A stretch of 63,268 nucleotides of DNA, taken from NCBI GenBank assembly GCA_945861385.1, contig CAMAUI010000009.1, positions 1-63,268 of the forward strand, given 5' to 3'. The notes under the pieces were generated by a model, which searched no databases, was not told the origin of the DNA, and saw only the letters and a program-made list of their open reading frames with translations. The translations under genes were made by a program, and so were the position numbers. Below, in pieces: positions 1-31,607 of the stretch (the first letter of the stretch is position 1; each line of letters begins with the position of its first letter). Origin of the DNA: Prosthecobacter debontii. Its GTDB lineage: Bacteria; Verrucomicrobiota; Verrucomicrobiia; Chthoniobacterales; Chthoniobacteraceae.

Positions 1-542
1 CTGCCAGTGCCATCCGCACTGCCGCTGACTCCGGCGCTGCCAGCCAATGTCGTCACCACTCCGCCGGGCGTCACTTTGCGGATCGTGGAGTTACCGTTAT
101 CCGCCACATAGACGTCACCGCTGCTGTCCACCGCCACGCCAGTGGGAAATTTAAACCGCGCCGCGCTGCCAGTGCCATCCGCACTGCCGGTGACTCCGGC
201 GCTGCCCGCCAAGGTGGTCACCACTCCACCGGGCGTCACTTTGCGGATCGTGTTGTTACCGCCATCCGCCACATAGACGTTCCCGCTGCTGTCCACCGCC
301 ACGCCAATGGGAACACTAAACCGCGCCGCGCTGCCAGTGCCATCCACGCTGCCGCTGGCTGGGGCGCTGCCCGCCAAGGTGGTCACCACAGCGGCGGCCT
401 GCACGCCCGCCGGGAGCGCGAAGAGCAGCAGAGTCAATGCGGTGAGTGTGATAGAAGCGGTCTTGCGAACCGCCTGAACGGCTGCAAAGCCGCGATGGAT
501 GCCGCGCAAAAGCGCAGTCTTTTTTGTTTTCATGGTTTTCAT
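1..542 (-). CDS. Secreted NHL-repeat protein, N-terminal part (runs off left edge)
   Basis: The minus strand encodes an N-terminal signal segment (hydrophobic run TLTALTLLLFALPAG, then VQAA) followed by repeated units of the type GVAVDSSGNVYVADGGNNTIRKV. These are NHL/beta-propeller blades. The blades repeat at exactly 165 bp (55 aa): the same 'ctgccagtgccatcc' block starts at 1, 166 and 331. Such proteins form extracellular or periplasmic beta-propellers; the ligand cannot be told. Two in-frame ATGs are available (542 and 533) and neither has a strong ribosome binding site. The 3' part of the gene lies outside the window. The near-identity of neighbouring blades suggests recent unit duplication. 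Confidence 0.85.
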   Translation of the reverse strand, partial: MKTMKTKKTALLRGIHRGFAAVQAVRKTASITLTALTLLLFALPAGVQAAAVVTTLAGSAPASGSVDGTGSAARFSVPIGVAVDSSGNVYVADGGNNTIRKVTPGGVVTTLAGSAGVTGSADGTGSAARFKFPTGVAVDSSGDVYVADNGNSTIRKVTPGGVVTTLAGSAGVSGSADGTG

Positions 543-647
543 TCTTTTACTGGTGTTTGGGTTTTGTTTTGGTTGTGACACGGGGGCGGGTGCATAGTTG
601 GCACCGCATTGGTAAACACAAGCGGATATTTGCACGGCTGACGTAGC

Positions 648-807
648 CAGACCCCCTCACTCCCCGACGCCCGTCCCGATTCTGACCGTTTCCGGTGCGG
701 CGGGCGCGAAAGCAATTTCCTAGCAGTCAGACCCCCTCACTCCCCGACGCCCGTCCCGATTCTGACCGTTTCCGGTGCGGCGGGCGCGAAAGCAATTTCC
801 TAGCAGT
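648..807 (+). repeat. 80-bp dispersed repeat, two copies in perfect tandem
   Basis: Copy 1 is 648-727 and copy 2 is 728-807, back to back with no spacer. Each starts CAGACCCCCTCACTCC and ends GCAATTTCCTAGCAGT. Three more copies lie at 3367, 5892 and 6869, all in the same orientation. Inside the unit are two tiny hairpins, GACG-CC-CGTC and ACCG-TTTC-CGGT. One reading frame is open through the whole unit, so it can fuse to neighbouring genes. Function is unknown. Confidence 0.95.
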
Positions 808-849
808 AAGGCGGAGGTGTTCGCTCTTTTGCGTGAACACTTCCGCCTT
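808..849. other. Inverted repeat adjoining the tandem 80-bp repeat
   Basis: The left arm AAGGCGGAGGTGTTC (808-822) and right arm GAACACTTCCGCCTT (835-849) pair over 15 positions with one G-T, around a 12-nt loop. It begins at the first base after the repeat. There is no U-tract on either side, so an intrinsic terminator is only one possibility; it could also be part of a recombination site. Confidence 0.6.
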
Positions 850-859
850 GCCCGCAGAT

Positions 860-942
860 GCCTCAACGAATACTCCGAGGATATGCGAACCACCCAGCCC
901 CCGCGCCAAACTCCGCAGTCGTGGAGTATGGGGGCGTTAGGC
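860..942 (+). other. Candidate integron attC site 1
   Basis: GCCTCAAC (860-867, R''-like) pairs with GTTAGGC (936-942, the canonical R' core GTTRRRY) with one bulged C. The next bases AACG pair with CGTT, and ATACTCC (870-876) pairs with GGAGTAT (923-929). The result is an imperfect 83-bp hairpin with the architecture of attC sites. The cassette cut would fall between 936 and 937, so the next reading frame starts 25 nt inside the cassette, as is usual. A truncated integron-type integrase lies at 8368. Confidence 0.6.
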
Positions 943-961
943 GTTTTTTACCCGTTATTCT

Positions 962-1411
962 ATGCCAAATGATTACTTCGCTGAACTCTATGTCGCAGGC
1001 GTAATCGCCAAGGCGGGCTGGAACGTCTATTTTCCACACCGCGACAAAGGCTTCGACTTCATCATTTCAAAACTCATCGATGGCAAACGATGGGTAGTGC
1101 GGCCAGTCCAAGTCAAGAGCAAGGCACCCGAAACCGCAGCCGCCCGTCCTGCCTACGGCTACAAAGGCAAACTTACTGCCGTTCATCCAGAAATGCTTCT
1201 CGCCATTCCGTATTTCACAGCCGCTGCTCGTGGCAAACCTTGTTGCATCGCATACATGCCATGCTCGCGGATTATCCTAGACACGAAAGGATTTCACTGC
1301 CAGCCTGCAAAACTTCGAGATCGATTAGTCACGCCAAGACCCACATTCATACACTATTTCGACGACAGCGGCATCGAGCGAATGGAGCAAGCCGATTGGA
1401 GCACCTCATGA
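962..1411 (+). CDS. Putative PD-(D/E)XK-fold protein, cassette gene
   Basis: This 149-aa protein has no signal peptide. Near the N-terminus it has GFDFIISK followed by RPVQVKSK, separated by about 12 residues. An acidic residue in a strand followed by Q/E-x-K resembles the core of PD-(D/E)XK nuclease-like domains, including small phage- and cassette-encoded proteins. The rest (YKGKLTAVHPEML..., SRIILDTKGF) is consistent with a small alpha/beta domain but not diagnostic. The gene lies alone between two attC-like sites, starting 25 nt after one R' core and ending 26 nt before the next R'' box, which is the layout of an integron gene cassette. Nuclease function is inferred only. Confidence 0.65.
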   Translation: MPNDYFAELYVAGVIAKAGWNVYFPHRDKGFDFIISKLIDGKRWVVRPVQVKSKAPETAAARPAYGYKGKLTAVHPEMLLAIPYFTAAARGKPCCIAYMPCSRIILDTKGFHCQPAKLRDRLVTPRPTFIHYFDDSGIERMEQADWSTS

Positions 1412-1437
1412 AAAAAACTAAAAACGCCTACCCGAAC

Positions 1438-1579
1438 GCCTCAGCGAATGACTCCGACTGACACGCTGGCTGCTCCACCGCCTTCGCCGCACGCAGTGTC
1501 TGCCCCGCTCCCATCCCTCCGCCATGCCAACCGCATTTCCACCCTGCCAACTCCCCTGCGGCTCAATACCATGTTAGGC
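1438..1579 (+). other. Candidate integron attC site 2
   Basis: GCCTCAGCGAATGACTCC at 1438-1455 is nearly the same as the left end of site 1 (GCCTCAACGAATACTCC). GTTAGGC at 1573-1579 matches the R' core, and site 1 and site 2 share GTTAGGCGTTT. The 142-bp length is at the upper end for attC sites. The inner stem is weaker than in site 1: GACAC pairs with GTGTC, but no clear L'/L'' match is seen. A second R''-like box, ACGCCTACC, lies just upstream at 1424. Call rests mainly on position and ends. Confidence 0.5.
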
Positions 1580-1652
1580 GTTTCTACGCGCACACAGTAA
1601 TCAAACCAGCACAACCAACCGAAGCAACCGAACCTCAACTCAAAACACAACA

Positions 1653-2177
1653 ATGAAAACAATCTTGCCAATCCTTGCGGCCATTCTGGCCTTCACCCAA
1701 TCGCTCCACGCCCAAGCAATCCAAACGGTTTCTTTCGCCAACATTGGCAGCGGCGCAAACCGCCAACAGGACATTCCTGTTGCAGCAGGCCAAATCTTCA
1801 AGTTGATAAATTGGTTGCCATCCTTCAATGGTCCGGCTGGGTTTCAGGTTGATGGTATCACCGTTAATGTTTCACCGGGTTCCACCCCTGCGCTCTCGGT
1901 TTTTCCAACGGATTTAGTGATAGCAGGGCCGCGAACCGTTTCGTTGATTATTCCCGCCGCCCAATCGCTCGTCTGTAGCTACGTATTGCAGAGCAACGAG
2001 TCTGTCGGGACCATCGTTCCGTCCGCATCAGTCGTAATTCCAGCCGATGCCGCTGGTCCAGTGCAGATCATTCTCGAATCGAGCACGGACCTTATCACAT
2101 GGACCGCTGCAACCCCCGGAAGCTACGGCTCATCCACCGCCAAGCGATTCTTCCGCGTTCGTGCAGTCGCTCCGTAG
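1653..2177 (+). CDS. Secreted protein with verrucomicrobial C-terminal strand signature
   Basis: This 174-aa protein begins with a clear signal peptide (MKTILPILAAILAFTQS, cleavage near HAQA). The mature part is rich in V, I, S and P, as in beta-sandwich exoproteins. The C-terminus reads ESSTDLITWTAATPGSYG then KRFFRVRAV, a short motif I recognise as common at the ends of secreted Verrucomicrobiota proteins. The gene starts 73 nt after the GTTAGGC of attC-like site 2, so it could be a second cassette, but no attC-like site is seen after it. No enzymatic motif is visible. Confidence 0.75.
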   Translation: MKTILPILAAILAFTQSLHAQAIQTVSFANIGSGANRQQDIPVAAGQIFKLINWLPSFNGPAGFQVDGITVNVSPGSTPALSVFPTDLVIAGPRTVSLIIPAAQSLVCSYVLQSNESVGTIVPSASVVIPADAAGPVQIILESSTDLITWTAATPGSYGSSTAKRFFRVRAVAP

Positions 2178-2420
2178 CACACATTGCCGAACTCATTTTT
2201 TATGAGCACGTTTCTCGTCGTCGAGTTCACACACGTCTCCGCGCCATCTCCAGAGACCATATCCGCGATTATGACGGGCGTGCGGCCTTGCCCTGTGCCA
2301 TGAGTGCCGGAATGAGGCGGTTGTATAGTTCGTGCGGTTTTCAATGCGCCGTGCCCGCGTGCGGGACAGAGCGGGACAAGGGGAAGGAGTTGCCGAGCCG
2401 TAAACCCGCGTAAACACTCG

Positions 2421-2470
2421 TAAAGTTTACTGACCGTTACTGACCGTTACGAAGCGTTACGGAGCGTTAC
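2421..2470. repeat. Five tandem 10-bp direct repeats (iteron-like)
   Basis: Five 10-mers run head to tail, the last four ending in GTTAC: taaagtttac, tgaccgttac twice, gaagcgttac and ggagcgttac. Just upstream are CGTAAA boxes about 10 bp apart (near 2399, 2409 and 2419). The 10-bp phase puts every copy on one helix face. The block abuts the 3' end of the replication-like gene at 2490. Iteron function is inferred only from this neighbourhood. The rest of the gene-free interval 2178-2489 shows nothing else recognisable. Confidence 0.7.
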
Positions 2471-2489
2471 GGACGTGCCGATGCTGTAA

Positions 2490-3366
2490 TCACATGAAGA
2501 AACGATATTTCTCGCCGTTGTTGCCCACGATGAGTGGTGCGGTGCCTGTGAGCTTGGCAATGGGCACTCCGAGTCGCCATGCAGTCCTGAATGCGTTGTG
2601 ATGCTGCTCGGCGAAGCCGCACGGCATTGGCACAATCAACGTGTTATCTCCAAACTGCTCGACGATGGAGCCGGGCTGTTCGGCCATGCCACTCGGCATC
2701 GGCACAACCACCGAATCCACAACGGGGATCGAGTGGATGCCGTCTGCGTGGTTTTCGAGAATGAGTTGTTTCATTATCTCAGCCAGCGCACAGCGCAGTC
2801 GGCGTCCTGCCAGCTTCGAGTCGAACCGTTTCATGCGTTCCACTTTCCCTGCCAGTAGCGGGAACAGACGCTGAAATTCACGGTAGCCTTCGCTGGCATG
2901 GATGGCAGCCGTGTTTGGCTGGTTTAGTGCCGAAAGGAACTTCCGCTTCCGCTTTTTGTTGCCCTCTCCGTAAATCGTCAGGAAACCGTTGATGACTTCC
3001 GTTTCAAAGCGGGCCTTCTCTGCCATCCATTCCGCCGATGTCTCCCCCGCGTAGAACATACCAAGCAGAACCGCGTGGGCTGACTTCACATCGAACTCAC
3101 CAACATGATGCCCGTCTATCAGCAATGCCTCGCGCATGATCTCGGGGAGGCGCGAGACGTTTGACTGCACATCCACGTCACGGGTCACATTAAGTTGATG
3201 CGGTTTCTTGCGGTAGTTCTTTACCGCTTTTCGTTCTCCTTCCTTTTCGAGATGCTCAAGCTGTGAGGCGAACGCTGGCCCCTCCGTAGTCACCAGTAGT
3301 GTTTTCCGAACAAGAGCCGCGTGAGGATTGGCCGCATCAAGACACTCTTGAAGAATGGCACCGCGA
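2490..3366 (-). pseudogene. 5'-truncated replication/polymerase-like mobile element protein
   Basis: About 290 codons are open on the minus strand up to the 80-bp repeat, which supplies a spurious N-terminus (a frame open through the repeat). The body has GEFDVKSAHAVLLGMFYAG and, about 145 residues later, HSIPVVDSVVVP. An Asp in D-x-K-S and a later D-S pair resemble the two metal-binding motifs of polymerase palm-like replication proteins of phages and plasmids. Family assignment is tentative. The native start is missing, cut at 3366/3367. The neighbouring 10-bp direct repeats fit a replication role. It could equally be an unassigned phage-type protein. Confidence 0.5.
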
Positions 3367-3446
3367 CAGACCCCCTCACTCCCCGACGCCCGTCCCGATT
3401 CTGACCGTTTCCGGTGCGGCGGGCGCGAAAGCAATTTCCTAGCAGT
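3367..3446 (+). repeat. 80-bp dispersed repeat, copy 3
   Basis: This copy matches the tandem copies at 648-807 in length and sequence, ending TTTCCTAGCAGT at 3446. It is preceded by CCGCGA, as is copy 4. It forms the breakpoint of the minus-strand gene ending at 3366. Confidence 0.95.
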
Positions 3447-3621
3447 AATCCGCTCATATACAGCAACTTGCGATTTGTGAATTTCGCGCCAAAGTCAAAA
3501 TAGTTAGTTTGCGACAAATTTGTTCTGGAAGTCAGCGGATAATTCTTGCAAATGAGCATAGTCAAGGTTACTCCACCTCTTAACAGAGCATCAAGAGTAC
3601 AAACTCCACACTACAGATATC

Positions 3622-4188
3622 ATGGAAAAGGTCACAACAACGACAGGTTCCCCGGCATTGAAAAATCTCAAACTCGCACTGTTGGCGGGCACCTGCCTGA
3701 GCGGTGCCACAGCCAATACGCAGGCTGTCTTGGTTATCGAATCCGCGGATTTTGCGAATGATTTGACGAGTGCCGTCTCCGCCCCGCAGCCAGTCGGAAC
3801 GGACGCTATTAACGGCAATGTTACGTTCACGTCAGATGACGACGATTTTGTTGCCTTTCAAAGTCTCACTCCGGGAGGCTCGTTTACTCTGGAATTTGGC
3901 GTTACTGGAGGCAACGTTTTTGATTGGAGCGTGTTGGACAGCACGGGTGCTTCTCTCGGCAGCCCGACGAGCCCGGTAGTCAGTAGCGGCAATACCACAT
4001 TTACTGGAATCATCCCCTTGGATGGTGTGCTCGTCGCTCAAGTCGATTATAATGAGGGCAGTCCATATACTATTGCGCTCACAGCGCCAGTTGTTCCAGA
4101 GCCTTCCACCGCGATGCTGGTAGGTGCTGGCGCGCTAGCTACGGTGGTCACACGGCGTCGCTCCCGCCGCATCTCGCTGGCGGAATAA
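3622..4188 (+). CDS. PEP-CTERM sorting domain exoprotein
   Basis: This 188-aa protein has a hydrophobic N-terminal segment (LKLALLAGTCLSGATANTQA) acting as a signal peptide. Its beta-rich middle has acidic stretches such as TSDDDDF. It ends in the tripartite PEP-CTERM signal: VPEPSTAM, a short hydrophobic helix (LVGAGALATVV) and an arginine cluster (TRRRSRR). Such proteins are processed by an exosortase and exported to the surface or extracellular matrix; no exosortase gene is in this window. The gene has about 175 bp of comparatively AT-rich upstream DNA that could hold its own promoter. No Shine-Dalgarno sequence precedes the ATG. Confidence 0.9.
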   Translation: MEKVTTTTGSPALKNLKLALLAGTCLSGATANTQAVLVIESADFANDLTSAVSAPQPVGTDAINGNVTFTSDDDDFVAFQSLTPGGSFTLEFGVTGGNVFDWSVLDSTGASLGSPTSPVVSSGNTTFTGIIPLDGVLVAQVDYNEGSPYTIALTAPVVPEPSTAMLVGAGALATVVTRRRSRRISLAE

Positions 4189-4237
4189 GCACCCAGCCCC
4201 TGCTGGGGCGTGAACTAGCGAGAGCTTGCCAGAGGCT

Positions 4238-4903
4238 ATGGACTATCAGATCATCCCGGTGCTGACGCCCGCGCAGGTGGAGGGCATTCTCAAAGTGCTT
4301 GCTACTCAGCCATTTGCCGATGGCAAGGCCACGGCAATTGGCAAGGCGCGCGATGTCAAACACAACTTGCAGGCAGAGCGCAGTGGCACCGCTCTGCGGG
4401 AACTGGAAAGTCTGGTCAGTTCGTCGCTTTTCGCCAACGGGCTGTTTCAGGCATTTGCATTTCCCCGAAAGCTGCGTCCGCCCATCTTTAGCCGTTACGA
4501 GCCCGGCATGAATTACGGCGCGCATGTGGATGGCGCCATCATGTATGATGATGCCAGTCCGCTGCGCTCGGACTTGGCGATGACGCTCTTCCTCAGCTCG
4601 CCCGAGAGCTACGATGGCGGCGAGTTGGTCATCTCACTTTCCTACGGAGAAGAAGAAATCAAACTCGCGCCCGGTGAGGCCGTGGTCTATCCGGCGAATA
4701 CTGTGCATCGCGTGGCTCCCGTCACGCGCGGCGTGCGCATGGCTGCGGTGACATGGGTACAGTGCGCCGTGCAGGACGAACGCATGCGGGCACTCTTGTT
4801 CGATCTGTATCTCGCCATGAAGAAAGTCGAGGCGCGTGAGGATGCCTCGCTGCTACTTTCAAAAACCTACCACAATCTCCTCCGCATCACAGCGGAGTTT
4901 TGA
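4238..4903 (+). CDS. PKHD-type Fe(II)/2-oxoglutarate dioxygenase (PiuC/YbiX-like)
   Basis: This 221-aa protein resembles the PiuC/YbiX family of 2-oxoglutarate-dependent prolyl-type hydroxylases. It has the HxD iron motif in NYGAHVDGAIMYD, the strand DLAMTLFLSSPESYDGGELVI typical of PKHD enzymes (given here only as a landmark), and the distal iron His with the 2OG-binding Arg in PANTVHRVAPVTRGVR. Length is normal for the family. The ATG at 4238 is chosen over an upstream in-frame TTG at 4226. The gene is followed after 9 bp by a second oxygenase gene, so the two are probably cotranscribed. In other bacteria the family is linked to iron-siderophore uptake genes, but none is seen here. Confidence 0.88.
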   Translation: MDYQIIPVLTPAQVEGILKVLATQPFADGKATAIGKARDVKHNLQAERSGTALRELESLVSSSLFANGLFQAFAFPRKLRPPIFSRYEPGMNYGAHVDGAIMYDDASPLRSDLAMTLFLSSPESYDGGELVISLSYGEEEIKLAPGEAVVYPANTVHRVAPVTRGVRMAAVTWVQCAVQDERMRALLFDLYLAMKKVEAREDASLLLSKTYHNLLRITAEF

Positions 4904-4912
4904 CCTGTCCCC

Positions 4913-5929
4913 ATGCCTGATTCCGTCCCCATGCCTGATTCATCTGGTTCGCTCATCGAAGTCATTGAGGATTTGGTGCCTGCCAATCTTTTAGCCGATG
5001 CCTGTATGGTGTGCGGCGGCAAGGGCTGGTATTTCGGCAACCGTTCCAATGTCGAGCACGACCTGCCTTTCTGGAAGATGGATTTGGACGGCGTGCCTGC
5101 TTTCGACGCCATCTGGCAATCTGCCAGACCGCTCTGCGAGGAACTCGCGGGCTGTAAACTGCGCGTGTTGCGCCAGTATGCCAATGGCCACACTTACGGC
5201 CAGGGTGGCCAACCGCATCGCGATGATGATAGGCCCGGCACGTTTACCCTGTTGTACTACCCGATGCCCGAGTGGAAGCCCGTCTGGCAGGGTGAAACGG
5301 TCTTTCACGATGCTACGGGAGAAATCGCCGTCGCCGTAACCCCCAAGCCCAATCGTGCGGTATTTTTCGACGCCCGCATCCCACACGCAGGTCGCGCACC
5401 GTCAAGGAGTTGCCCCGCGTTGCGCGTCACCGTGGCCTACAAACTGGAAGCCGTGGAGGGCGAGCCTGCGCCAGTCGTCGCCCACGAAGCGCAGATACCC
5501 GCCGCGTCTGACGTCACCAAACCGGCCTTGCCTGCCGACGGCGAGCCTGCGTCAGCACCTGCGCAACCTGCTCAATTCCATGTCGTTGAGTTGGAACGCC
5601 ACCGAGCGCAGCGCGTCTATCGCCTCAGCGTGGATGCCGCGCAGATGGATGCGCTCATTTCCGTGCGCCTGCTGGAACTGGGCCGCACCCTGCGCATGCC
5701 CGGCTATCGTCCAGGCAAAATTCCCATGGAGATCCTGCGCGACCGCTATGGCGCACGCACGCGCAGCGAGGTGCTGGCGCGACTCGGCGAGCAGGCCGCC
5801 ATGCAGATGCTTTCCATCGGGAGTCTGCCAGTTTCCATCGCATCCATCGAGGGTGCGGAATCCGCCAATGCCGCCTTTCGCCTGACCGCGACAGACCCCC
5901 TCACTCCCCGACGCCCGTCCCGATTCTGA
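4913..5929 (+). CDS. 2OG-Fe(II) oxygenase fused to trigger-factor-like ribosome-binding domain, 3' end altered
   Basis: Residues 1-180 are a 2-oxoglutarate/iron oxygenase: HRD at 102-104, distal His in DARIPHAG (H158), and a basic residue in the following RAPSR for the co-substrate. A Pro/Ala linker (about 181-225) leads to residues 230-326, which read like the N-terminal ribosome-binding domain of trigger factor: RVYRLSVDAAQMDALISVR, then the signature GYRPGKIP at 264-271 (family form GFRPGK), then RDRYGARTRSEVL. The native sequence stops at residue 326, where the 80-bp repeat begins; the last 12 residues are repeat-encoded. Two near-identical start blocks (ATGCCTGATTC at 4913 and 4931) make the exact start uncertain. 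The fusion suggests hydroxylation near the ribosomal exit tunnel, but this is inference. Confidence 0.8.
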   Translation: MPDSVPMPDSSGSLIEVIEDLVPANLLADACMVCGGKGWYFGNRSNVEHDLPFWKMDLDGVPAFDAIWQSARPLCEELAGCKLRVLRQYANGHTYGQGGQPHRDDDRPGTFTLLYYPMPEWKPVWQGETVFHDATGEIAVAVTPKPNRAVFFDARIPHAGRAPSRSCPALRVTVAYKLEAVEGEPAPVVAHEAQIPAASDVTKPALPADGEPASAPAQPAQFHVVELERHRAQRVYRLSVDAAQMDALISVRLLELGRTLRMPGYRPGKIPMEILRDRYGARTRSEVLARLGEQAAMQMLSIGSLPVSIASIEGAESANAAFRLTATDPLTPRRPSRF

Positions 5930-5971
5930 CCGTTTCCGGTGCGGCGGGCGCGAAAGCAATTTCCTAGCAGT
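5892..5971 (+). repeat. 80-bp dispersed repeat, copy 4
   Basis: A full-length copy, preceded by CCGCGA as in copy 3. It terminates the oxygenase-trigger factor gene on its left and joins it to an unrelated exoprotein tail on its right. Confidence 0.95.
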
Positions 5972-5972
5972 C

Positions 5973-6359
5973 AAGGCGGCGGGCGACCAGATTCAGGACG
6001 TCGCGGCCACCATCAATACGCGGAAGGACTTCGTTTTTTTCATCGAGAACAACGGCACCGTGGATGACACGATCACTTTCAGCAGCAGCGACAAAGATCG
6101 TGATTTGTTTCGTTGGTTTCTCGGTCCAGTGGGCGATGACAGCACGGAAATATCCGCCGATGTATTCGCCAAAACGGGGCGCAATTTCGCCATCAAGGCA
6201 GGCGAGCGCGTCACGGTGCGACTCGCATCACTCCGCCAGGATTTGAGGCTTCCTCCGAAAGCCAAGAAATCGAGCGTCACCCTCAAAGCCGTCTCGACGA
6301 CCAACAAAGCGAAGCGCGATCAGTTCAAGGTGAACGTTAACTTTCTGCCCCCTCCATAA
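5973..6359 (+). pseudogene. C-terminal fragment of a large exoprotein
   Basis: About 128 codons are open from the 80-bp repeat to a TAA at 6359, with no plausible start of their own; the first ATG in frame is at 6060. The text (DFVFFIENNGTVDDTITFSS..., then KAGERVTVRLASLRQ, ending NVNFLPPP) resembles a 'NDGTVADRF'-type beta-sandwich domain found at the ends of verrucomicrobial surface proteins. It is in frame with the repeat and, if translated, would give a chimera. It is probably the 3' remnant of a gene whose 5' part has been lost. Confidence 0.6.
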
Positions 6360-6632
6360 TCGTCGAGAGCGGATCACGGGGCGGCTGCTCCACGTCATTC
6401 AGCTTTTGCCTTTGACGGAAGTCACTCACGCCTCCGAGGCGGGCGACGGCTGTGGCGGGCGCTGCAAAATCGAAGCAGGGAAGGCCGACATTCGATCACT
6501 TTGCGACATCGCTGGCGGCGCGATGGACGGGCAGCAGAAAGGCCCTGCGGTGATGCTCCTCACTGCGACCGCGCAAACACCGAAAAGCTGAACGTCGCCC
6601 GCAGACCCGGCTCCGCGTCGCCGGCGAGCGCG

Positions 6633-6868
6633 CTATTTTTTCCCGGCCCACTCCTCCCACCAAGCGTCGGCCTGCTCGGGGCTGACTGCCCCATCGGCGA
6701 TGATGATTTGGTACCGCGAGACATAGGGTTTTCCCGGCTCGATGGCCATTTCGCCGAGTTGCTGCGGCGCATAGCAAAAGAACGGCTCCGTCGGATGCAC
6801 GCGCATGGGCTGCGGGAAGCGGAAATTTTCCGGGTGGCAGAGAATGGTGACGCCCGCGAGCGCGCCAT
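6633..6868 (-). pseudogene. C-terminal fragment, PmoA-like/DUF6807-type protein
   Basis: The minus strand carries about 78 codons reading GVTILCHPENFRFPQP, VHPTEPFFCYAP, MAIEPGKPYVSRYQIII, AWWEEWAGKK and stop. These are features I associate with the end of secreted PmoA-like (DUF6807) proteins common in Planctomycetota and Verrucomicrobiota. The upstream three quarters of the gene are missing: it begins exactly at the 80-bp repeat (copy 5). The interval 6360-6632 to its right end shows no gene. Identification is from memory of the family and is moderate. Confidence 0.55.
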
Positions 6869-6947
6869 CATACCCCCTCACTCCCGACGCCCGTCCCCGT
6901 TCTGACCGTTTCCGGTGCGGCGGGCGCGAAAGCAATTTCCTAGCAGT
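6869..6947 (+). repeat. 80-bp dispersed repeat, copy 5 (diverged)
   Basis: The right half is identical to the other copies (TCTGACCGTTTCCGGTGC to TAGCAGT at 6947). The left half differs: CATACCCCC in place of CAGACCCCC, a lost C in the ACTCCCCGACG run, and CCCCGT for CCCGAT. It separates two minus-strand gene fragments of different families. Confidence 0.9.
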
Positions 6948-7440
6948 TCGATCGGATGTTCGGGCTGCGGAATCCCCTGGTTGCAGTAGTTGGAAAATGG
7001 GCAATCAAACGGGTCATGGCATTGCGGGCCGACGGCGATTTCGGGATCCTCGGGCAGGGCCGCGATCTTCTGGGCAGCAATCCAGCCCCTGACCTCCTTG
7101 GTGCGGGCAACAGTTTCCTCGGTGAGGTCATTCTCCTTGAGCAGACCCCGGTAGTCCTCATCTCCGGGATAGACCCAGGAGCTGTCGATGTGGGCCAGCG
7201 CGACCGATTTCAGCGGCACCCCTGCGGTCTGGGCGACGAATGTCTCACTCTGAATGCTGCCTCAAAGACCGGCTGCCGGGAATTCGCCACCAACTCCGCG
7301 GTGCGCGCGTATGCAGCATCGAAGCCTTCGGTTTTGAAATCAATGAGCGCTCCCTTCCCCTTCGGATCGTACACTTCCAGCCAGAGCCGCTTCGGGCACT
7401 GGCGGAAGGCGATGAGTTTGGATTTGGAAAGTGTGGGCAT
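6948..7440 (-). pseudogene. Broken DUF2779-like protein with Cas4/RecB-type features
   Basis: The N-terminus MPTLSKSKLIAFRQCPKRLWLEV has the S-K-x-x-x-x-F-R-Q-C-P-K-R-L-W opening of DUF2779/Cas4-like nuclease proteins. It is followed by DPKGKGALIDFKTEGFDAAYARTAEL and NSRQPVFEAAF. The frame then breaks near 7240 and resumes in another frame as GVPLKSVALAHIDSSWVYPG, then CHDPFDCPFSNYC, a cysteine cluster of the kind that binds an Fe-S centre. It ends at the 80-bp repeat. Compared with intact relatives (about 500 aa), the segment between residues 23 and 24 and the nuclease core are missing, so it cannot encode an active enzyme. Confidence 0.65.
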
Positions 7441-7452
7441 ACGATGGCGGAA

Positions 7453-8006
7453 TCACACCGTGCCGTCCGGAGGGTTGGTGTCGTCACTCTGCTCTTTCTC
7501 CGGAGCTTGCTGTGCAGGGGGCGGCTGCTGACCGGATGAATTCTCCAGTGGCTCTGCTGGGTAGTAGGAGCTCGTTTTTCGCGAACGGCTCGAATATGCC
7601 CGGCTCATCTTGCGCGCACGCGGCCCCCATTCCTCGCTCGCTTCCTCAAAAACCCGGAGATTCTCGATCGCCTGGCCCGTGCTCTCGGCGCAGCCGTAAC
7701 GCTCCAGCTTGTCTTTCGTCGTCTTCAGGCGACGGCGAACGGCGTCGATGTCGCCGCGATCACGCTCGGCGATGGCTTCGGAAATCGTGCGGCCAACTTC
7801 CTGCGCTGCGACCCACTCGACGACCATTTGGCGTATTCGAGAGGTCTGCCGGCCATTGAGCCGCTGTTGTCGATGACGAGGCCGAACGCAAACGGCGTCT
7901 GTCGGGCGGACGCCTGCTTTTCCGCTTTGAACACGAGGGCGAGATGAACCACTTCCGCGCGTCCGCAGAGCACTGTTTCGTAATCGAGATGGCAATCGGT
8001 TTTCAT
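7453..8006 (-). pseudogene. Broken von Willebrand A domain protein
   Basis: The start MKTDCHLDYETVLC is followed by a hydrophobic strand and the metal-site motif VIDNSGSMAGRPL (D-x-S-x-S). Near 7830 the frame is lost. The other minus frame continues with VVEWVAAQEVGRTISEA and a lysine/arginine-rich tail to a stop at 7453. The central 250 or more residues expected for a CaCl-channel-like/vWA protein are absent, so this is an internally deleted pseudogene. It ends 12 bp before the start of the DUF2779-like fragment and both are on the minus strand, so they may once have formed an operon. Confidence 0.65.
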
Positions 8007-31505: not shown

Positions 31506-31520
31506 AATAGCCTTTCAGAT

Positions 31521-31607
31521 GGGACGGGGAGACGCGGAGACGTGGAGACGTGGAGACGTGGAGACAAGGGGACGCGGAGACGCGGAGACGCGGGGGCGCG
31601 GGGGCGC
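31521..31607. repeat. Nine-base minisatellite (GGAGACGYG type)
   Basis: About nine imperfect copies of a 9-bp unit, GGAGACGCG/GGAGACGTG, run to GGGGGCGCG at the end. It starts 16 bp after the esterase fragment's stop. The following stretch to 31847 has a short open frame (AIAVMLEKHGIACDLMHGAD) of no recognised family. Confidence 0.85.

Follow-up and report, generated by a model that had tools for sequence, protein, structure and literature searches.

The window, by which we mean the whole 63,268-nt stretch of DNA analyzed, contains three plus-strand genes of interest near its 5′ end. These encode a PEP-CTERM protein (P0008, 3622–4188), a PKHD-type 2OG-Fe(II) oxygenase (P0002, 4238–4903), and a 338-aa, 3′-truncated fusion of an oxygenase to part of trigger factor (TF) (P0001, 4913–5929). 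P0008, the likely substrate in the interpretation developed below, was assigned by PF07589 (24.6 bits against a cut-off of 20.7) and TIGR02595 (22.3 against 16), and its genome also encodes an exosortase (contig C79, E 3.8e-43), as befits a PEP-CTERM protein. The ORF of P0002 is listed from a TTG codon (4226–4903), but, judging by homologues, translation more likely begins at the ATG at 4238. Its score of 234.7 bits with NF003974 (cut-off 143) places P0002 among the PKHD-type hydroxylases and bears out an earlier note on this DNA, which described a PiuC-like oxygenase 9 bp upstream of the fusion. P0002 also matched 2OG-FeII_Oxy_3 (E 1.6e-13), with putative ligands at HVD 100–102 and H161.

The same note had proposed that 4913–5929 encodes an oxygenase joined to a TF N-domain, and profile searches upheld both halves. 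In P0001, 2OG-FeII_Oxy_3 matched residues 93–165 (E 3.3e-8; 34.8 bits, Pfam cut-off 27), and Trigger_N (PF05697), the model against which the note had suggested searching the C-terminal part, matched residues 231–327 (E 9.1e-12; 45.9 bits, cut-off 22.2), encoded at 5603–5893 (+). A genome-wide Trigger_N search recovered this domain at 5603–5899 (E 5.3e-12), and a phmmer comparison with PDB sequences returned TF N-domains (best E 2.4e-6, a partial domain alignment). The residues singled out in the note lie where it placed them, all on the plus strand: the first two iron ligands in HRD (residues 102–104; 5216–5224), the third iron ligand H158 (5384–5386), and the ribosome-docking signature GYRPGKIP (residues 264–271; 5702–5725). 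HxD and the histidine with its following LR, which mark the 2OG-Fe(II) oxygenase superfamily, were kept in all seven fused members. PF13640 and PF13661 were the only oxygenase families in Pfam to match P0001, which does not belong to the JmjC/ROX group. Among NCBIfam models, that for FlmC-type oxygenases matched at E 3e-18 and tig matched at E 2e-11, each scoring under its whole-protein cut-off. Structure predictions were too poor to use: the mean pLDDT was 38.6 for P0001 alone and 52.5 for P0003, an intact homologue modeled from an alignment of two rows.

The frame of P0001 ends inside a copy of a dispersed repeat of ~80 bp (5891–5971, +), in agreement with the note's statement that the repeat replaces the 3′ end of the gene. 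Residues 327–338 are consequently repeat-encoded, and the protein lacks the end of the TF N-domain and the entire C-domain, both present in intact homologues. What follows the repeat is the tail of an unrelated reading frame (5972–6359, +) rather than a TF C-domain: Pfam gave no match under E 0.07 in 5967–6359, and tblastn found no match to the TF C-domain or to the cupin-like and sulfotransferase-like proteins described below in the part of the window after the repeat. A query joining these three parts, taken from a homologue in an Acidobacteriaceae record (L017), returned nothing at E ≤ 1 from the window's genome, in a search that had no positive control.

Five copies of the repeat lie in the window (648–727, 728–807, 3366–3446, 5891–5971, and 6869–6947), all in the same orientation and four of them identical over 80 bases. 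The genome holds at least 40 matches (40 of 68 candidates were scored), and Rfam gave no match to the repeat or to anything in window positions 1–8000. The minus strand of the repeat provides the first codons of several ORFs; the ORF at 2490–3434 (−, 314 aa), which has no Pfam match under E 0.1, takes its first ~25 residues from the copy at 3366. The copy at 6869 sits between unrelated gene pieces at 6636–6869 (−) and 6947–7440 (−). One adjoining piece is a C-terminal DUF6807 fragment (PF14100 positions 202–269 of 270, E 1e-11), and the other, which has no Pfam match, we take by eye to be a DUF2779-like nuclease fragment. Repeat copies may be rearrangement points or assembly joins. Elsewhere in the window, 31513–31606 is an array of 8-bp units (GAGACGTG-like), with overlapping copies spaced 8 bases apart.

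With its TF C-domain gone, P0001 can be read as a remnant or as a protein in reduced form, and the window copy, truncated as it is, may be dead. We judge the chances to be evenly balanced that it is the decaying remnant of a transferred cassette, functionless today, from which the repeat or a rearrangement there removed the rest; in a variant of this explanation, the draft assembly was joined at the repeat. Termination of the frame in the repeat speaks for such decay, yet the PEP-CTERM, PKHD, and fusion frames are all open and the iron ligands are in place. The missing parts were found neither in the window nor, by the search without positive control, in the genome, a second repeat copy likewise splits unrelated gene pieces, and the genome is a draft of 174 contigs (93.7% complete). 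On the other hand, a lone TF ribosome-binding domain can work, as that of chloroplast Tig2 is reported to do (PMC11731035). A dead copy in the window can be reconciled with the function proposed below, as the latter concerns the intact cassette.

Within the window's phylum, where the note had suggested looking for intact homologues, the fusion was confined to the window's own genome (1 of 387), a distribution that by itself would suit a chance read-through or an annotation accident. A scan of species genomes found a single relative, the Acidobacteriaceae protein already mentioned, which shows 46% identity in its best segment and covers residues 3–327. This protein is untruncated at 487 aa and comprises the oxygenase, Trigger_N (E 1e-14), and Trigger_C (E 1.5e-8), with no PPIase match. 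Searches by genome gave matches in 4 of 399 genomes of the class to which the genome of this relative belongs and in 10 of 257 genomes of the order of G511. Among the ten order matches, six are fused (G436, which is the genome of L017, G511, G706, G922, G870, and G891), three have the TF part alone (G679, G944, and G932), and one has the oxygenase part alone (G930). The six intact fused homologues, from the Acidobacteriaceae record and five genomes of its class or order, are 43–50% identical to P0001 in the overlap (tblastn), share its domain order, and all exceed the Pfam cut-offs for Oxy_3, Trigger_N, and Trigger_C. Their existence refutes both the chance read-through and the annotation accident, which we rate as extremely improbable; it also disposes of the possibility, raised in the note as fatal to its proposal, that the two parts are always separate genes in intact homologues. 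A stop codon suspected inside the G891 frame (L057) lies ahead of its start, and the coding frame itself is open. The oxygenase-only relative in G930 (L060, 3258–5639), which was read but not counted among the TF loci, adjoins two ORFs that resemble 2OG oxygenases by eye. The TF loci compared hence number ten, the window's and those of nine other genomes: seven fused (the window included), two beside a PKHD gene without the fused oxygenase, and one alone.

Broader searches mostly recovered one half of the protein. Within the window's own order the query matched 121 of 213 genomes; the matches listed, the own genome's excepted, start no earlier than model position 152, fall mostly within the TF region, and look like canonical TFs. 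Among near relatives 16 of 57 genomes matched, the own genome over the full length and the other 15 only over query positions 215–332. A scan of viral contigs gave no relative. Among the matches listed from 6 plasmid records and 123 phage records, all were relatives of the oxygenase domain only; three of the neighborhoods were inspected. An oxygenase tree placed the window's enzyme among the cassette enzymes, without resolution inside that group, the nearest being that of G922 at 65% identity. A tree that compared 10 TFs from cassettes with 16 canonical TFs, and from which L002, L007, L008, and L011–L016 were left out, placed the cassette TFs on one side of a branch with support 100/100, apart from the canonical TFs of the same genomes. 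The trees and the patchy distribution together suggest horizontal transfer into the window's lineage.

As a rule, the cassette proteins exist alongside canonical trigger factor. The window's genome encodes a canonical TF (C15:14804-15235, E 5.8e-34), the window protein being the only other Trigger_N match, and canonical tig was found in nine of the ten genomes in all (it was not seen in G706). Trigger factor (tig, TIGR00115; PF05697 + PF00254 + PF05698) and the cassette proteins have the N-domain in common, and intact homologues have the C-domain as well, whereas the cassette proteins lack the PPIase domain and are fused to an oxygenase. Accordingly, N- and C-domains exceeded the Pfam cut-offs in 9/9 untruncated cassette proteins and FKBP matched 0/9, whereas N, FKBP, and C were all present in the three canonical TFs tested. 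P0001 has neither the FKBP-type PPIase domain nor the C-terminal chaperone domain. Against the tig whole-protein cut-off of 180.2 bits, cassette proteins score far lower, at 43.4 (P0001), 81.1, and 102.1. Because the PPIase domain is missing and the whole-protein score falls short, P0001 is not a trigger factor by membership, but it probably relies on a TF-like capture of substrate.

The docking signature G[FYV]RxG is retained in nine of the ten cassette TFs, as GFRPGKIP in five, GYRPGKIP in the window, and GFRPGQIP, GFRGGSIP, and GVRPGQAP in one each; the G511 protein carries EYPAGQIP instead. The idea that the signature is generally degenerate in cassette TFs, which arose when three of five looked degraded, was dropped on this count. 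For comparison, the canonical pattern occurs in 15 of 16 TF loci in the window's order (none in L008) and in 9/9 of an acidobacterial set. Most cassette members could thus dock at the exit tunnel, while that of G511 is unlikely to.

The gene order around the TF-like gene is conserved. A PKHD gene directly adjoins it, with one or two PEP-CTERM genes close by, in nine of ten loci (the window, L028, L029, L031, and L055–L059). The PEP-CTERM gene lies immediately upstream of the PKHD gene in eight of these nine; in G436 the contig starts inside the PKHD gene, and the PEP-CTERM gene follows a sulfotransferase-like gene. In G944 and G932 the fused oxygenase is absent while PEP-CTERM, PKHD, and TF genes are kept. 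The orphan TF of G679 has neither a PKHD nor a PEP-CTERM gene in the stretch examined, and its genome, alone among the ten, gave no exosortase match, a count made with no background rate for the order. Cupin-like and sulfotransferase-like genes come next in four of ten loci (G436, G511, G706, and G870), some of the contigs being short; in the window's genome they were not found, again in the search without positive control. In G870 (L056, 7163–11126) the two form one 638-aa protein, which supports a joint role for the proteins that are separate in the three other loci. The cupin-like alignment contains no invariant histidine; its profile matched YxbC over its first ~40 positions (E 2.8e-6) and, weakly, vicilin-type cupins and MINA/NO66 (E 0.1–0.2). 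Sulfotransfer_3 exceeded its Pfam cut-off in one of the four sulfotransferase-like proteins, and the best solved relatives of their profile are protein-tyrosine sulfotransferases (E 0.0025). A second sulfotransferase-like gene adjoins a PEP-CTERM gene in G870 (Sulfotransfer_2, E 1e-6) and G706 (weak match).

All 11 PEP-CTERM proteins of the cassettes have the motif L-[LM]-x-[AGST]-[ST]-C-L-[ST] near the N-terminus, in a stretch that by eye resembles a signal peptide; in P0008 it reads LLAGTCLS (3679–3702, +). Since the motif was defined on these same 11 proteins, this count is descriptive, and its absence elsewhere is the test. None of four other PEP-CTERM proteins in the stretches examined, a small control set, has it, and a slightly wider pattern searched in six frames gave no further match in 262,479 bases and none in another 20 stretches that total 311,754 bases. 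Nine of the 11 proteins exceed the PF07589 cut-off; that of G436 passes TIGR02595 only, and one of the two from G870, with PET for PEP, passes neither.

On the strength of these domains, neighbors, and motif, we consider it somewhat probable that the cassette serves to hydroxylate dedicated PEP-CTERM surface-protein precursors prior to their export, that its TF-derived module captures the substrate as a chaperone, and that the window contains a truncated copy. The precursor would be synthesized with its N-terminal, signal-peptide-like LLxxTCLT motif, and the TF-derived module would catch it in the cytoplasm, perhaps at the ribosome exit, and hold it unfolded. Hydroxylation by the PKHD enzyme and the fused 2OG oxygenase would then follow in this compartment, the one in which Fe(II)/2OG enzymes work. 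In fuller cassettes the cupin-like protein, which lacks conserved histidines, and the sulfotransferase-like protein may join in, perhaps adding sulfate, after which the precursor would be exported and processed by exosortase at its PEP-CTERM end. We assign substrate handling to the TF-derived module because it stays with the hydroxylase and the secreted precursor whether or not an oxygenase is fused to it. A narrower version, in which TF has become a recognition and delivery subunit that docks at the exit tunnel and selects LLxxTCLT precursors for cotranslational hydroxylation (and sulfation by the partner) before export and exosortase processing, seems to us unlikely as a whole. Were it true, bacteria would have, in their cytoplasm, a counterpart of the collagen-type hydroxylation that accompanies secretion. 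More generally, if hydroxylation before export is the right reading, a group of PKHD oxygenases would gain a suggested role, the N-terminal motif may mark modified surface proteins, and uncultured bacteria would offer a directly testable route from the ribosome to a modified cell surface.

Two other functions were weighed. In the first, the protein would be an oxygenase of the translation machinery, held at the exit tunnel by its TF N-domain and hydroxylating ribosomal proteins, EF-Tu, or nascent chains generally. Such an enzyme has precedents in YcfD acting on L16 and PPHD acting on EF-Tu (PMC4543633) and would make use of the signature kept in nine of ten cassette TFs. That signature is replaced in G511, the oxygenase matches 2OG-FeII_Oxy_3 and no JmjC family, presence is patchy (1 of 387 and 10 of 257 genomes), and the conserved neighbors are motif-bearing PEP-CTERM genes rather than translation genes; we regard this function as quite improbable. 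The PEP-CTERM neighbors with their common motif make unexported or nascent surface proteins the likelier substrate, and EF-Tu or ribosomal proteins the less likely targets. The earlier note had named both kinds of target; its option of nascent chains fits, whereas its option of EF-Tu or the ribosome is disfavored. A rather unlikely alternative separates the two activities: the TF-like part would help the PEP-CTERM protein to be exported or to fold, as a chaperone that is general or ribosome-free, and the oxygenases would act on a small molecule, a glycan, or a metal-linked surface substrate. PKHD/PiuC enzymes are linked to iron uptake in other bacteria. TF-only versions adjoin PKHD and PEP-CTERM genes in G944 and G932, and that the PEP-CTERM protein is the oxygenase substrate is something we infer, both of which leave room for separate roles; they sit poorly with the fusion of oxygenase to TF in seven members, all seven with their iron ligands.

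The proposed hydroxylation of PEP-CTERM precursors by a TF-linked enzyme has partial likenesses among known systems. Our literature search, which covered titles and the starts of abstracts and left subscription journals mostly outside its coverage, returned no TF fused to a modifying enzyme and no PEP-CTERM hydroxylation or sulfation cassette. Chloroplast Tig2 illustrates how a TF ribosome-binding domain alone can take on a new role and, like the window protein, lacks the other TF domains, but it has no fused enzyme (PMC11731035). YcfD, NO66/MINA, and PPHD are 2OG enzymes that act in translation, and YcfD and PPHD are bacterial precedents for protein hydroxylation there (PMC4543633); the fused oxygenase differs from them in not being JmjC and in having surface proteins as its gene context. 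Of the named NCBIfam models, that of the FlmC family of 2OG-Fe(II) oxygenases (NF052475) fits the oxygenase part of P0001 best, but P0001 reaches 66.5 bits against a cut-off of 240 and so falls outside the family; that model is 181 long and has no TF part. The PKHD-type or PiuC-like hydroxylases (NF003974) include P0002, which differs in its pairing with a TF-like protein and PEP-CTERM genes.

In the tail region of the cyanophage Synechococcus phage Sf-CH11 (L044, 1–4516), a related oxygenase has as annotated neighbors, in this order, a short tail fiber, a 2OG oxygenase, a tail assembly chaperone, and a second 2OG oxygenase, after which comes the related gene itself, a homologue of the window's oxygenase domain. 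The annotation of this homologue as DNA endonuclease V is probably a misannotation. As in the cassette, hydroxylase, chaperone, and surface protein occur together, but as separate genes and with no TF domain; by analogy, we find the arrangement a suggestive parallel. In RiPP systems, one or more small precursor genes with a common N-terminal motif stand beside genes for modifying enzymes. The cassette resembles these in linking a putative precursor gene to predicted modifying enzymes and in its common N-terminal motif, whose part in recognition is putative. It differs in that the putative precursor is a PEP-CTERM surface protein of ~175–200 aa with the motif in a signal-peptide-like region, and in that the putative recognition part is derived from trigger factor.
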